20,976 nucleotides of DNA from a virus: IMG/VR virus record IMGVR_UViG_3300008110_000513, positions 1 through 20,976 of that record, one strand, 5' to 3'. The notes below the pieces were generated by a model that ran no database searches, was not told where the DNA came from, and was given only the letters and a program-made list of their open reading frames with translations. Shown here piece by piece: positions 7,181 through 12,765 of this stretch (its first letter is position 1; the number at the start of each line of letters is the position of its first letter). A program made the translations under genes and the position numbers.

Positions 7181-9249
7181 TAACACTGAAGAATATTACA
7201 TTACGAAACTTTTTATCAATCGGACAAGTCACTCAAGCAGTTGACTTTAACCGCCAAGACTTAACACTTATTCTAGGTGAGAACTTAGACTTAGGTGGCG
7301 ACGGCGCTCGTAATGGTACAGGCAAAACTAGTCTTATTCAAGGTCTATCATATGCATTGTTCGGCGTGCCCATTAACTCAATCAGAAAAGATAATTTAGT
7401 TAATCGTACAAATGGAAAGGGTATGCTAGTTACATTAGAGTTTAGTGTAAACGGTATAGACTACAAGATTGAGCGTGGTCGTAAACCAAACCTGTTAAGA
7501 TTTTATGTAAACAATGATTTGCAAAAAGGTACGGATGACGCACAGGGTGAGAACAAAGAAACACAGGCTCAGATTGAAAAAATAATTTGGATGTCTAGTA
7601 GCATGTTCCGTCACATTGTAGCACTCAATACATACAGCGAACCTTTTCTAGCACTAAAAGCAAACGAACAACGTGAAATCATTGAACAACTGTTGGGTAT
7701 TACACTACTATCCGAAAAAGCAGAATCAATAAAACAGTTACTAAAAGAAACCAAAGACTCTATTCAAAGTGAAGAATTTAAAGTCAAGGCTATTGAAGAG
7801 GCCAACAAGCGTGTAAAAGAACAGATTGAAAGTTTGAAACGTAGACAAGGGCTTTGGCAAAAGAAACATGAAAGTGATTTAGCTTACTTAGTTGCACAAT
7901 ATGATGAACTAGCAAAAATTGATATTGATGCGGAATTGTTAGCGCACAACGAATTAGTAATTTGGAATCAAAAGAAAAAGCAACAAGATACATATAACTC
8001 ATTGCTAGCTAGACAAACTGCATGGAAGCAGAAACAAGATAAAGACATTGATGATTTAGTTGTAAGTAGTGCAAAATTAGACACTATAGATATTGTCGCA
8101 GAAATTTTAGCACACCGCACATTAGCCGAATATAATACCAAGTCATCAGAGTTAGAAAATCGTGACAAAGACCTAGCACGACTACAAAAAGATATTGACA
8201 AAGAAAATAAGTTAATTAAGAAACTTGAGGCAGAGGTTGCTACACTACGTGACCATCAATGCTATGCATGTGGGCAAGAGTTCCATGATGAACAGCATAC
8301 TAAGGTTCTACATGATAAAGAACACATGTTGCTTGAAGCAAATATACACGTAACTTCATTATTAAATCAATACAAAGAACAAAATGACAAAGACATTGTA
8401 CCTGGTATTAAACCAAAGACACATTATAAAACAGAAGCAGAGGCAATTCGTCACGGTAGTGCTGCCGAAAATATTCGTACTAAAATACTTGAAAAAGAAG
8501 CAGAAACTGATCCATACGCTGAACAACTAGCAGAACTTACAATAGTAGAAGTGGGTCCAATGCCTGTTACTCAGTATGATACTGAATCACAAGCGGTTGA
8601 GCATCGCAGTAAAGTGTCTGGGTTGTTACAACAAATAGAAACTAAATCAATTGAAACGGATCCATATGCTGAACAAGTTTTTGAGATGGAAAGTAATGCA
8701 TTGCAAGCAATTGACTTTGAAGCAATCAATAAACTAACAAAGACTATGGAGCATCAAAAGTTTTTGTTAGATATATTAACTAGTAAGGACAGCTTTGTTC
8801 GTAAGAAAATCATTGACCAGAACCTAAGTTATTTGAATAGTCGTTTGACACATTACTTAGATAAGATTGGCTTACCGCATCAAGTTATCTTTCAAAATGA
8901 TTTGAATGTTGAGATTACAGAGTTGGGTCGTGAACTTGACTTTGATAACTTAAGTCGAGGTGAACGCAATCGTTTGATATTGGGATTAAGTTTTGCATTT
9001 CGTGATGTATGGGAGAACCTGTACGCACCAATCAATACCTTATTCATTGACGAATTGATTGACAGTGGGTTAGACACAATGGGTGTTGAAAACGCTATCG
9101 CTATTCTTAAGGATATGTCACGTAGGCGACACAAATCTATTTGGCTTGTTAGTCACCGTGAAGAACTAGCAGGACGAGTACCCAGTGTCTTAAAGGTAGT
9201 TAAAGAAAACGGATTTACAACATATAGTAATGCAGTGGATGTAGAATGA
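7177..9249 (+). CDS. 46: Recombination ATPase gp46 (Rad50/SbcC-like, 690 aa)
   Basis: SMC-type ATPase partner of gp47. The Walker A motif lies at about residues 43-51 (GARNGTGKT, K50). Two long coiled-coil arms flank a zinc hook, C362-Y-A-C365. The ABC signature LSRGE is at 592-596 and the Walker B FIDE at 623-626, followed by the D-loop region SGLD. This is the complete Rad50/SbcC order. It is longer than T4 gp46 (560 aa), probably through longer coiled coils. It acts in the cytoplasm on replication and recombination intermediates. The start overlaps the upstream stop as ATGA, and its own stop overlaps the next gene in the same way. Confidence 0.95.
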   Translation: MITLKNITLRNFLSIGQVTQAVDFNRQDLTLILGENLDLGGDGARNGTGKTSLIQGLSYALFGVPINSIRKDNLVNRTNGKGMLVTLEFSVNGIDYKIERGRKPNLLRFYVNNDLQKGTDDAQGENKETQAQIEKIIWMSSSMFRHIVALNTYSEPFLALKANEQREIIEQLLGITLLSEKAESIKQLLKETKDSIQSEEFKVKAIEEANKRVKEQIESLKRRQGLWQKKHESDLAYLVAQYDELAKIDIDAELLAHNELVIWNQKKKQQDTYNSLLARQTAWKQKQDKDIDDLVVSSAKLDTIDIVAEILAHRTLAEYNTKSSELENRDKDLARLQKDIDKENKLIKKLEAEVATLRDHQCYACGQEFHDEQHTKVLHDKEHMLLEANIHVTSLLNQYKEQNDKDIVPGIKPKTHYKTEAEAIRHGSAAENIRTKILEKEAETDPYAEQLAELTIVEVGPMPVTQYDTESQAVEHRSKVSGLLQQIETKSIETDPYAEQVFEMESNALQAIDFEAINKLTKTMEHQKFLLDILTSKDSFVRKKIIDQNLSYLNSRLTHYLDKIGLPHQVIFQNDLNVEITELGRELDFDNLSRGERNRLILGLSFAFRDVWENLYAPINTLFIDELIDSGLDTMGVENAIAILKDMSRRRHKSIWLVSHREELAGRVPSVLKVVKENGFTTYSNAVDVE

Positions 9250-9638
9250 GAAGGATAATAGTCAACGGAACGTTTGATATTTTACATAGAGGTCATTTAG
9301 AATTATTACAGTTTGCACGTAATCAAGGTGATTATTTAACTGTAGCAATTGACAGTGACCGAAGAGTAAAAGAGTTGAAAGGCAACAGTCGCCCAATCAA
9401 TGATATGAATGAACGTGGAATATTACTTATGTACTTAAAACCCGTTGACCAAGTTGTAGTGTTTGATACTGATACAGAACTAGTAGAATTGATACAACAA
9501 CATGATGCAATGATTAAAGGTAGTGACTATAGGGGCAAATCAATCGTAGGTGAAGATGTTTGCAAAGAATTAATATTTTTTGAGGTAATAAATGGATACA
9601 GCACAACAAACAAAATACAAGATATTATTAATCGGTGA
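9246..9638 (+). CDS. hldC: ADP-heptose synthase, adenylyltransferase domain (HldC/HldE-C, 130 aa)
   Basis: Transfers AMP from ATP to heptose 1-phosphate, giving ADP-D-glycero-D-manno-heptose, an LPS inner-core precursor. The protein follows the C-terminal domain of bacterial HldE along its whole length: NGTFDILHRGH (H14 and H17 of the nucleotidylyltransferase HxGH motif), VAIDSD, LKGNSRPIN, VD-x-VV-x-F-x-TDT, IKGSDY and the terminal GYSTTNKI. The size (130 aa) equals the stand-alone enzyme. It starts within gp46's stop (ATGA). The last 47 bases also encode the start of the kinase gene in another frame. A general cytidylyltransferase (TagD type) is less likely because LKG-x-SRP and GYSTT are HldE-like. 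Confidence 0.85.
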   Translation: MRRIIVNGTFDILHRGHLELLQFARNQGDYLTVAIDSDRRVKELKGNSRPINDMNERGILLMYLKPVDQVVVFDTDTELVELIQQHDAMIKGSDYRGKSIVGEDVCKELIFFEVINGYSTTNKIQDIINR

Positions 9639-10350
9639 TACATGTGATGACACATACACATACGGTTATGTAAATCGCATTAGTCCCGAAGCACCTGTTC
9701 CTATTTTTGAACCTAGATATCATATCAATCACGATGGCATGGGCGGCAATGTACGAAAGAATTTAGAAGCATTAGGGTGTGATGTTAAGTTCTTACACGG
9801 AAAAGTAAGCAAAAAGAATCGTCTGATTGATGCCCGCACTAAGCAACAACTACTAAGGCTTGATGAAGATTATATCAGTGATCCTATTACATTTGAAACA
9901 GCAATACCACCTATATATGATGCTATCGTTATCAGTGATTATAACAAGGGCACAGTAAGCTATGAGTTGATAGAAGAATTGGTTAAAGAAGTAAACATAC
10001 CAATCTTTGTTGATACAAAGAAAACAGATTTAGCAAGACTAGACGGGTGTTATGTTAAGATAAACAAATTAGAAAAAAGCCGTGCTACTAGTGAGTTACA
10101 CAATAAGGAGCATTTGATTGTTACTTATGGTGATTTGGGTGTTATCTGGAACGAGTGGGTATTCCCTGCTGAGATTGTAGGTGATGTAACTGACGTATGT
10201 GGCGCGGGTGATACATTCTTAGCGGCACTAACATACAAGTTTTTAGAAACCAAAGATATGAGAGAAGCAGTTATATTTGCAAATAAGGCTGCATCAATAA
10301 CAGTACAACACGTAGGGGTGTATGCACCCAGATTGGAACAAATCAAATGA
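9592..10350 (+). CDS. hldA: Heptose-7-phosphate kinase domain (HldA/HldE-N, PfkB family, 252 aa)
   Basis: Ribokinase-type sugar kinase expected to phosphorylate D-glycero-D-manno-heptose 7-phosphate at C1. It matches the N-terminal half of HldE: IGDTCDDTYTYG, the diagnostic ISPEAPVPIFE, GMGGNVRKNLEALGCDV, TKQQLLRLD, VISDYNKG, DTKKTDLARL and the catalytic GAGDTF. It is shorter than the bacterial domain (about 315 aa). Roughly 30 residues are missing after DVKFL, and the region around the usual 'TPN..E' is compressed, so activity should not be taken for granted. GAGG at 9582-9585 lies 6 bases before the ATG, fixing the start inside the adenylyltransferase gene (47-base overlap). The stop overlaps the cupin start as ATGA. 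Confidence 0.82.
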   Translation: MDTAQQTKYKILLIGDTCDDTYTYGYVNRISPEAPVPIFEPRYHINHDGMGGNVRKNLEALGCDVKFLHGKVSKKNRLIDARTKQQLLRLDEDYISDPITFETAIPPIYDAIVISDYNKGTVSYELIEELVKEVNIPIFVDTKKTDLARLDGCYVKINKLEKSRATSELHNKEHLIVTYGDLGVIWNEWVFPAEIVGDVTDVCGAGDTFLAALTYKFLETKDMREAVIFANKAASITVQHVGVYAPRLEQIK

Positions 10351-10706
10351 CACAATTACACGGATTAGTACCCAAAGGTTGGGGATCGGAATTTATATGG
10401 GCTAGTAATGATAGATACTGTGGCAAGTTTTTAAATTTTGAATCAGGTAAAAAATTCAGTATGCACTTCCATAAAGAAAAAGAAGAAACTTGGTATGTAC
10501 AATCCGGTAAGTTTATTGTTCGCTGGATTGATACCAACACTGCCGAACAACAAGAAACAGAATTGAGCACTGGTAGTGTTTGGCACAATAATCCGTGTTC
10601 TCCACATCAATTAGAGTGTATTGAAGCTGGAACAGTTATAGAAGTTTCTACACCAGATAGTGTCGAGGATAACTATAGGGTACTTCCTGGAGATAGTCAG
10701 AAATGA
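10347..10706 (+). CDS. Cupin, sugar-phosphate isomerase-like (119 aa)
   Basis: Single-domain cupin. Motif 1 fits G-x5-H-x-H-x4-E-x6-G exactly (G34, H40, H42, E47, G54), and a second-motif histidine is H87 within PCSPHQLE, so a metal site is likely. The opening KGWGSEFIWASNDRYCGKFL resembles the mannose-6-phosphate isomerase-like cupins fused to or associated with nucleotide-sugar enzymes. It sits between the heptose kinase and the epimerase, with ATGA overlaps on both sides. The substrate is unknown. It might supply an isomerase step, but this is inference and nothing here shows which sugar it binds. Confidence 0.75.
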   Translation: MTQLHGLVPKGWGSEFIWASNDRYCGKFLNFESGKKFSMHFHKEKEETWYVQSGKFIVRWIDTNTAEQQETELSTGSVWHNNPCSPHQLECIEAGTVIEVSTPDSVEDNYRVLPGDSQK

Positions 10707-11509
10707 AAATATTAGTTACCGGACATAAAGGGTTTATTGGACAGAACATGGTTCGATACCTACACAACAATACTGACTGGGAAGTTGATACATATGATTG
10801 GGACGGTGGTATACTACCTTCAATTATTGACCAAGATTGGATATTACACTTAGGTGCCATTAGTTCTACTACTGAACGTGATATTGATAAAGTTATGTTT
10901 CAAAATTTTGATTTTACTAGACAACTATTTGATGCTTGCAAAACATATGGAGTAAATTTACAATATTCTAGTAGTGCAAGTGTATATGGATTTGGAACTG
11001 ACTTCACTGAGGATGCAATCCCTGATCCAAAGACACCATACGCATGGAGTAAGTATCTAGTTGAGAGGCATCACCGAATGCATCAGGGCGGTAATATAGT
11101 ACATGGATTCAGATATTTTAACGTATACGGTAACGGTGAAGAGCATAAAGGATCACAGGCTAGCCCTATTTCAAAATTTAGAAAACAAGAAACTATCAAG
11201 TTATTTGAGGGTTCAACCAAGTATTTTAGAGATTTTATATGTGTTGAAGATATATGTAGAGTACACGTTGACTTCATTAAAAATGTTAAAAAATCAGGTA
11301 TTTTTAATCTAGGTACGGGCAAAAGTTACAGTTTTCAGCAAGTAGCTGACTTGATATCAAGTAAACAAGAATTAATTCCTATTCCAGAAGAAGTAAAATA
11401 CAGCTATCAGGAACTAACTTGTAGCGATAATACTAAACTAGAAAGTGTACTAGGTAGTCAAAAATGGATAACTATCGAAGAATTTTTGGAATCAAGTAAT
11501 AACAGATAA
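10703..11509 (+). CDS. hldD: ADP-glycero-manno-heptose 6-epimerase (HldD-like, 268 aa)
   Basis: Short-chain dehydrogenase-type epimerase predicted to convert ADP-D-glycero-D-manno-heptose to the L-glycero form. A Rossmann motif G7-x-x-G10-x-x-G13 opens the protein. The HldD-typical GAISSTTERD follows, then SSSASVYG and the catalytic Y113-x-x-x-K117. Further matches to E. coli HldD are GFRYFNVYG, EHKGSQASPISKF, KLFEGSTKYFRDF and GIFNLGTGKSYSFQQVADL. It is shorter than E. coli HldD (310 aa), mainly in the N-terminal half. It closes the heptose cassette, and its start overlaps the cupin stop (ATGA). Confidence 0.85.
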   Translation: MKILVTGHKGFIGQNMVRYLHNNTDWEVDTYDWDGGILPSIIDQDWILHLGAISSTTERDIDKVMFQNFDFTRQLFDACKTYGVNLQYSSSASVYGFGTDFTEDAIPDPKTPYAWSKYLVERHHRMHQGGNIVHGFRYFNVYGNGEEHKGSQASPISKFRKQETIKLFEGSTKYFRDFICVEDICRVHVDFIKNVKKSGIFNLGTGKSYSFQQVADLISSKQELIPIPEEVKYSYQELTCSDNTKLESVLGSQKWITIEEFLESSNNR

Positions 11510-11517
11510 GTAAGTCT

Positions 11518-12078
11518 ATGCCAAGTCCACAAAAAGCTAAAGGTTCAGGATACGAAAGAGAAGTTGCAAAATTTCTCTCAGATTTGTACGGTGAGAGTTT
11601 CATTCGTGCTCCTGGATCTGGTGCATATGTGGGTGGCAAGAATCAAGCAAGAACTCAATTCTTACATGAGGGACAGATTCGTTCTTTCAAGGGCGATATT
11701 GTTCCGGGAGAGAGTTTCAGCAAAATGAATGCAGAGTGCAAGTTCTATCAGGACTTCCCGTGGCACCTAATACTTACAGGTGAATGCAAACAACTTGATT
11801 CGTGGCTACAACAATTGTTAGATGTTGCCGATCCTAACGATTTTAACATTCTTTTTATGAAGTTTAATCGTAAAGGACAATATGTCGCAGTACAACCAAA
11901 GCATACATGGATAATAGATAATTTCTGTTTCTATGGTAGCAAAACGTACGGTGATTGGTACATCACAGAATTCAATAGCTTTTTCAAACTTAACAAAGAC
12001 TTAGTAAAATTATACTCAGGCTCAATCTCAGACACCAAGTCAATCAATACATTAGATTCTACAATCGTAAATAATTAA
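11518..12078 (+). CDS. Hjc-like PD-(D/E)XK nuclease, possible Holliday junction resolvase (186 aa)
   Basis: The N-terminal half carries the archaeal-Hjc-type nuclease pattern: KGSGYEREVAKFL (E13/E15), RAPGSGAY, then KGD60 and AE73-C-K75, together a PD-(D/E)XK active site. The C-terminal half (QPKHTWIIDNFCFYG onward) is unassigned. A junction resolvase would suit the neighbouring gp46/47 and could replace the T4 resolvase gp49, though substrate choice cannot be read from the motif. It starts 8 bases after hldD. The start has no clear Shine-Dalgarno sequence, but GATAAGTA (11505-11512), one base from the GATAAATA late box, ends 5 bases before the ATG. Confidence 0.72.
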   Translation: MPSPQKAKGSGYEREVAKFLSDLYGESFIRAPGSGAYVGGKNQARTQFLHEGQIRSFKGDIVPGESFSKMNAECKFYQDFPWHLILTGECKQLDSWLQQLLDVADPNDFNILFMKFNRKGQYVAVQPKHTWIIDNFCFYGSKTYGDWYITEFNSFFKLNKDLVKLYSGSISDTKSINTLDSTIVNN

Positions 12079-12531
12079 AAATTTGTTGGCTCAATTGTGA
12101 GTCCTCCTTGAGTTTGTACAGATTGTGCTGTGCCGACAGAACTGGAGTATGCGTATCAGCAATGATACGGAACACCGAGAAGGCAATCGGAAAAGCGAAC
12201 CTTCAATGAGTCTATATCTAACTCTATCTTGCGGATATAGAACATGCGTTGCTGAAGAATTGTATTAAACAATAGCTTCACTACAGTCCCATAAACTTTA
12301 CAGAGCAACCGGTGGCGAATGATAACAAAAAAGGTTAATTGTTCGGGGAATAGATGGCAAAGGATGACGGGCATGGCAAGTTTCCATTGGTAGTGCTGAA
12401 TAGCACTACCATGGCTTCAAAGCGGCAATCTATTTAAAAGAGATAACAATTAAAAAGAGTTTAAAACAATACCGAACAATGCGAACGAAGTGAGCAATGT
12501 GAAGGTATTAGATGACCGAAGGTCATCTTTT
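12079..12531 (+). ncRNA. Candidate large structured RNA (about 450 nt)
   Basis: This stretch has no credible gene but many compatible helices. ACCTTCA (12199-12205) pairs with TGAAGGT (12500-12506) as an outer stem. Inside it lie a 7-bp stem 12212-12218/12234-12240; a 5+5-bp stem 12253-12263/12269-12280; a 9-bp stem 12338-12346/12472-12480; nested in that, 7 bp at 12349-12355/12428-12434; and nested again a perfect 10-bp hairpin at 12388-12397/12402-12411. Upstream are a 6-bp hairpin (12088-12103) and a 7-bp hairpin with a GCAA tetraloop (12152-12169). A terminator hairpin closes the region. The GNRA loop and the U-tract both indicate the plus strand. CGTAAATA (12066-12073) could be a weak late promoter; otherwise it is the 3' end of the gp47 operon. 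It does not resemble tmRNA, RNase P RNA or a group I intron that I can recognise. Confidence 0.6.
12510..12531 (+). terminator. Intrinsic terminator at the end of the RNA candidate
   Basis: AGATGACC (12510-12517) and GGTCATCT (12521-12528) form a perfect 8-bp stem with a GAA loop, running into TTTT. The polarity is plus strand; the minus-strand side has no U-tract. It would end the gp47-to-nuclease operon and the RNA candidate before the convergent minus-strand operon. Confidence 0.7.
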
Positions 12532-12576
12532 AATAGAGTAGTAAGATGTTAAGTTGTGATAAATGACTTACTATGG

Positions 12577-12765
12577 TTAGAAGAATGGTAGATTTGATTT
12601 CTTAGTAGTTTCTAAGTTATCTTCAATAATTTTATTAATGGCATTTCGTTCATCTATACTCATGTTTAGTATATCTTCATAACTTATACCACCGCGCATA
12701 TACCAAGCCATTTTAAGCGAGTTGGATTTAATGGCTTTACACTCCTCTTCCATAGTATCTATCAA
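12577..12765 (-). CDS. Tail assembly chaperone, downstream (T-like) part (62 aa)
   Basis: Short protein with MAWYMRGGISYEDILNMS, then ERNAINKIIEDNLETTKK and a PFF ending. The pattern 'W-x-x-x-GG-x-[ST]-[YF]-E-D-[IVL]-[LM]-x-[ML]' is typical of the small second ORF of phage tail assembly chaperone pairs. The frame stays open upstream to 12807 without a stop and meets the gp26-like gene at a T-TTT-TTC heptamer, so it can be made as the C-terminus of a 351-aa -1 frameshift product. Independent initiation is also possible: a TTG at 12765 has GAGGAG 9 bases upstream, and the first ATG is at 12753. The gene order corresponds to T4 26-51, but T4 gp51 is much larger. Confidence 0.75.
   Translation of the reverse strand: MIDTMEEECKAIKSNSLKMAWYMRGGISYEDILNMSIDERNAINKIIEDNLETTKKSNLPFF

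Follow-up and report, generated by a model that had tools for sequence, protein, structure and literature searches.

Directly after the stop codon of a phage resolvase gene lies a stretch of about 450 nt (positions 12079-12531 of the window, the 20,976-base IMG/VR fragment analysed here, which derives from a T4-like myovirus, a giant lake phage) that almost certainly constitutes a conserved, structured non-coding RNA, as judged from its sequence and that of its homologues. Toward its 3' end, the RNA carries two direct repeats whose mutual identity is very probably maintained by selection. We tentatively favour a reading in which this putative stand-alone RNA would offer a pair of identical strands to a single nucleic acid that complements them. 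The class is absent from Rfam and is carried by large lake and marine phages that are abundant. Its signature, in which direct repeats and not complementary strands co-vary, is rare and yields a concrete and testable prediction of mechanism.

Locus, conservation, and coding potential

The window encodes a gp55-like sigma, gp47, gp46, a heptose/sugar operon, a PDDEXK (RusA-like) resolvase, a gp26-like baseplate protein, a portal, and a head protease. The portal is 50-56% identical to those of the jumbo phages Atu_ph07, Phosso, and PA5oct, which places the virus near these; the RNA occurs on contigs of up to 367 kb. At about 4900, some 7 kb upstream of the RNA, lies the window's main divergent gene-strand switch. 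As claimed in a preliminary description of this DNA, the ~450-base stretch holds no gene: positions 12079-12576 are gene-free among the open reading frames of the window, and no open frame, in any of the six, is common to the homologues, on which ground a coding-region reading was rejected. The strand folds better than 100 of 100 dinucleotide shuffles (z -4.0).

Homologous loci were sought in IMG/VR with the two neighbouring proteins and a DNA pattern, giving 218 loci with the region and 106 non-redundant homologues, all on phage contigs. These occupy one syntenic position, flanked by the gp46/47 and PDDEXK resolvase genes on one side and by the p62/gp26 baseplate genes on the other; the resolvase lies upstream in 201 of the 218 loci and p62 downstream in 202, most of the remaining loci being cut by contig ends. 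Each of seven large genomes has a single strong match to a covariance model of the central domain. When genome contigs were searched with a loose pattern, the homology scan confirmed no locus among the matches listed, and a bacterial origin of the RNA was rejected accordingly. In the named phages PA5oct, Phosso, SCTP-2, and Atu_ph07, an HMM of the RNA has no match, and the covariance model, whose E-values are rough, gives nothing credible (best E 0.04, a partial hit in SCTP-2 far from the locus).

The preliminary description had placed the RNA at the end of a gp47-heptose operon, an association that proved accidental: the RNA is kept beside the PDDEXK resolvase, and the sugar genes are inconstant neighbours that many homologues lack, with gp46 ending ~0.6 kb upstream of the RNA. 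Those of the window (9246-11509) comprise a phage-encoded cytidylyltransferase, a PfkB-type kinase, a cupin, and an epimerase, consistent with a heptose-like sugar pathway, and are missing from the same place in many relatives. The downstream neighbour p62 has 62 residues and no Pfam or PHROG match, and is conserved beside gp26 clade-wide. Elsewhere, permuted tmRNAs occur in five of six large relatives (G003 c116069-116461, also G002, G006, G007, and G008); that of G003 is also matched by the betaproteobacterial tmRNA model, which hints at a betaproteobacterial host.

With a length of about 450 nt and a closing hairpin of its own, this is, we infer, a stand-alone phage RNA. Alternatively, the same stretch could act in cis as a 3' UTR, protecting or terminating the gp46/47-resolvase mRNA and insulating the convergent p62/gp26 genes. 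It does begin at the resolvase stop codon (12078) and end at a conserved hairpin between convergent genes; however, it is far too elaborate for such a role, which would also leave the identity of the repeats unexplained, and we regard a cis element as very unlikely.

Consensus fold of the RNA

The proposed structure comprises 117 pairs (Table 1) and was scored on 68 sequences. Paired cells amount to 92.8%, versus 79.5% in shuffled and 33-43% in slid controls, and double changes are seen in 85 pairs and 1124 cells, versus 58 and 333 (shuffled) or 41-47 and 140-197 (slid). An independent R-scape-like test, our own approximation by tree-based simulation (106 sequences, 30 null alignments, E<0.05), returned 22 significant column pairs, 20 of them Watson-Crick and 2 cross-terms of neighbouring pairs. 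The fold includes two covarying pseudoknots, in which the segment 3' of P10 pairs with the internal loop of P8 and with the loop of P7. Among the hairpins, P2 has two significant pairs (12092/12099 and 12093/12098), and the P3 helix is 99.5% paired and nearly invariant, with covariation in its extension. The alignment of the 3' linker is uncertain.

Table 1. Features in and beside the RNA, in window coordinates; "significant" refers to the tree-based null.
Feature	Position	Strand	Support or remark
PDDEXK/RusA-like resolvase	11518-12078	+	conserved upstream neighbour, outside RNA
RNA core	12079-12430	+	106 non-redundant homologues aligned; 5' boundary good to about 10 nt
P1, tentative closing helix	12085-12087/12424-12426	+	paired in 85%, compensatory pairs lacking; weakest of the helices
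P2 hairpin	12088-12093/12098-12103	+	double changes in 6/6 pairs
P3, invariant CUCCUUGA/UC-U-GGAG helix with variable extension (12112-12137)	12104-12147	+	
P4, GNRA-capped hairpin	12152-12169	+	94% paired; double changes in 7/7 pairs
P5, closes central domain	12173-12177/12310-12314	+	99.4% paired
P6 hairpin with internal loop	12179-12204	+	100% paired; 12181/12202 significant
P7 hairpin	12206-12245	+	99.1% paired; double changes in 11/11 pairs; loop is part of PK2
P8, with variable hairpin P9 within	12248-12253/12304-12309	+	P8 97% paired
P10 hairpin	12316-12345	+	double changes in 11/11 pairs
Pseudoknot PK1	12287-12290 with 12346-12349	+	97.3% paired; 12287/12349 significant
Pseudoknot PK2	12224-12229 with 12352-12357	+	98.3% paired; 12224/12357 and 12226/12355 significant
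Direct repeat copy 1, GC-AU-GGCAAG	12371-12380	+	letter N matches copy 2 in 87/88 sequences
Near-invariant 10-bp hairpin between repeats, GGUAGUGC..GCACUACC	12388-12411	+	98% paired (68 sequences)
Direct repeat copy 2, GCGGCAAU	12422-12429	+	letter N matches copy 1
Hairpin, A-rich tail	12479-12497	+	inner pairs covary; 12485/12491 significant
Closing hairpin, presumed terminator	12510-12531	+	98.9% paired; double changes in 7/8 pairs
p62	12577-12765	-	conserved downstream convergent neighbour, outside RNA

The preliminary description had called the stretch an undescribed large structured RNA, a reading now supported by its conservation, strong covariation, lack of coding potential, and lack of an Rfam match. 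Two of the hairpins named there are real: the 10-bp hairpin at 12388-12411, with rare compensatory changes at 12394/12405 and 12397/12402, and the GCAA-capped hairpin, which is P4 and carries GUAA, GCGA, GCAA, or GUGA loops in homologues. The "clean terminator" stands as a hairpin (12510-12528), but its U-run is short and it is missing from the terminator scan list. The covariation belongs to the fold of Table 1 and not to the three long-range stems predicted earlier: in homologues, pairing stands at 46% both for the outer stem (12199-12205/12500-12506), which has 4 compensatory cells, and for the 9-bp stem (12338-12346/12472-12480); the nested 7-bp stem, taken as 12349-12355/12428-12434, reaches 61%, no better than shuffles. 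Since they pair poorly in homologues and clash with the covarying helices at 12179-12204 and 12316-12345, as well as with PK1 and PK2, these stems were rejected.

Direct repeats and a candidate partner strand

Across the family, the repeats take the forms NC-AU-GGCAAG (copy 1) and NC-GGCAAU (copy 2), and the two copies vary jointly among 118 distinct forms: AGCAG/AGCAG, AGCAA/AGCAA, GGCAU/GGCAU, CC-GGCAA/CC-GGCAA, GUUGAA/GUUGAA, CUGCAUGU/CUGCAUGU, and others. At position N, the best resolved of the repeat, the 88 parsed sequences have GG (60), UU (22), CC (4), or AA (1), with one exception, and the 68-sequence alignment has 50 GG, 18 UU, and 0 mixed. Parsimony counts 15 independent joint changes at this position, which switches between G and U at least 13 times. 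Sequences with rare motifs match within their own repeat pairs better than 2000 of 2000 permutations. No column of the RNA, nor any repeat-anchored position, complements the state of N, and there is no third co-varying site; a third complementary strand inside the RNA was thus rejected.

Because the copies change jointly and no column within the RNA complements them, both would appear to meet the same partner. All four letters at N, together with the frequent switches, argue that this meeting occurs by base pairing rather than through a protein. Large phage RNAs are often protein-bound, and two identical sites would suit a dimer, such that the RNA might instead be an RNP scaffold with a phage protein binding both repeats, one subunit each; however, with at least 13 G/U switches and four letters at N, the specificity of that protein would have to change each time, and we hold the scaffold to be quite improbable.

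In the tentatively favoured reading of two identical strands and one partner, the folded 5' domain would hold the 3' module in position, and the two strands of the module would base-pair with one and the same complementary strand, for which the candidates are an RNA in trans, a DNA in trans, or the second copy's own template DNA. The hairpin between the repeats would set their spacing, or would let the partner pass from copy to copy. We favour this arrangement because repeat identity has persisted through 15 joint changes without a complementing column in the RNA, and because the modules of two sister classes, types C and D (below), also change both copies alike. Against it, the partner would have to change 15 times in step; tRNAs and tmRNAs hold no convincing complement to the repeats, and two large genomes have no complement of at least 10 nt at a telling place and nothing consistent elsewhere.

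A related but distinct possibility is that the RNA is a replication or R-loop primer, in which one repeat of the folded transcript would anneal to template DNA at the second repeat and the RNA-DNA hybrid would be cut or extended to start replication. The mechanism of ColE1 RNA II involves identity between an RNA loop and the non-template DNA, and the RNA II pre-primer is likewise a structured transcript, of about 500 nt; it has no match to the RNA here, for which priming is proposed by analogy. Priming would account for identity without a third site, the template DNA changing along with the repeat itself, and the RNA does lie among recombination and replication genes (gp46/47, resolvase), with an RNase HI gene adjoining the equivalent gap in phage Phosso. 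The main gene-strand switch is near the RNA, within a few tens of kb, in six of six large genomes. The cumulative GC-skew minimum falls about 8 kb from the RNA in two of the six; however, it lies 20-48 kb away in the other four, and third-position skew tracks gene strand and not replication, so that skew as an origin test is suggestive in two of six genomes only and confounded by gene strand. A 7-bp hybrid would also be short, and on balance we consider a primer unlikely.

The order repeat, hairpin, repeat is also the anatomy of two template-copying machines whose take-off and landing sites, one on each side of a hairpin, have to be identical, namely, DRT2-like template switching by a reverse transcriptase and ribosome bypassing like that of T4 gene 60. 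DRT2-type template RNA is a hairpin with matching flanks, as here; in contrast, no partner reverse transcriptase is present, PF00078 (RVT_1) being absent from seven large genomes in which the controls were positive, and a template RNA of this type was rejected. So was a translational bypassing element, as the sequence before copy 1 has no frame open into a take-off codon (median 11 codons or fewer). A jump module of either kind, which we rate as exceedingly improbable, is already largely refuted. A TnpB guide RNA of the OMEGA type was likewise rejected, as PF07282, sought as the sign of an adjacent or genome-encoded TnpB, stays below the cut-off in seven genomes.

Sister clades and known RNA families

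In relatives that lack the RNA, the site or its vicinity is occupied by other gene-free stretches, none with a credible Rfam match. The marine class, type C, is a large structured RNA class found near the same locus, at L123:6536-7049 (minus strand) and in a total of about 40 marine loci; it has its own consensus fold (24 full sequences aligned), with direct repeats ACAUGAA flanking a conserved 12-bp hairpin. In L417 and L449, neither of which is the closest relative of the other, an identical A-to-G change turns the two copies into ACGUGAA and occurs almost nowhere else; both copies read ACAUAAA in L428 and ACAUAAU in L481, L486, and L492. Type D (L396 about 1800-2500, and L402), in which these two sequences share 66% identity across 719 nt, has rearranged neighbouring genes and changes both copies around its hairpin from GGCAAGT in L396 to GGGACAGA in L402-L404. 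Candidate modules in L394, L400, L410, and Phosso belong to single-sequence classes and were excluded as evidence, repeats beside hairpins being no commoner there than in shuffles (combined p 0.23).

No sequence similarity connects the 12079-12531 family (type A) with types C and D; on the basis of locus and module, we infer that the three are one RNA by descent. A jumbo-phage RNA superfamily, sequence-unrelated between clades and held together by one locus, one 3' module, and a mechanism needing identical flanking strands, is a possibility that we put forward with reserve. If real, such a superfamily would amount to a strand-passing or R-loop device with two sites, found in no RNA family known to us. 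Long unannotated gaps occupy the corresponding place in cultured jumbo phages (L371:8759-9774, i.e., Phosso 229758-230773; L370:8517-9181 in PA5oct). That of Phosso, a cultured Sinorhizobium phage, is about 1 kb long and full of hairpins, and may permit laboratory tests.

In Rfam 15, the RNA has no match at gathering score to any family, ROOL, OLE, HEARO, RNase P, tmRNA, and group I/II introns included, and none credible at a relaxed threshold (best E about 3). No description of it was found in the literature searched, most subscription journals being outside its reach. The manA and wcaG motifs, putative 5' UTR elements of T4-like cyanophages (PMC2864571), are likewise structured RNAs of T4-like phages, but the RNA here has no Rfam match to them.

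The preliminary description recognised neither GOLLD nor ROOL here, and rightly so. The GOLLD model (RF02032) has no match in the window or in 12 diverse loci; the search does detect a GOLLD at another place in G001, a 367-kb relative, within an array of 33 tRNA genes (L503:4359-4824, G001 about 164359-164824). G001 thus carries both RNAs, with its tRNAs about 100 kb and its GOLLD about 110 kb from the RNA. Identity with GOLLD was rejected on the lack of a match and on a locus between resolvase and p62/gp26 instead of in a tRNA island; identity with ROOL, on the lack of an Rfam match and a locus away from tRNA islands. GOLLD and ROOL form cages (PMC12286853), and by analogy the repeats might be contact sites in an RNA-only dimer, ring, or cage. 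Subunit contacts should, however, be complementary or symmetric, and the repeats are identical and mostly not self-complementary; the distance from tRNA genes and the separate GOLLD of G001 also speak against such an assembly, which we judge improbable. What recalls these families is size, ornateness, pseudoknots, and phage origin: the RNA is large, ornate, and phage-borne like GOLLD, from which it differs in sequence and in setting, and large, pseudoknotted, and phage-borne like ROOL.
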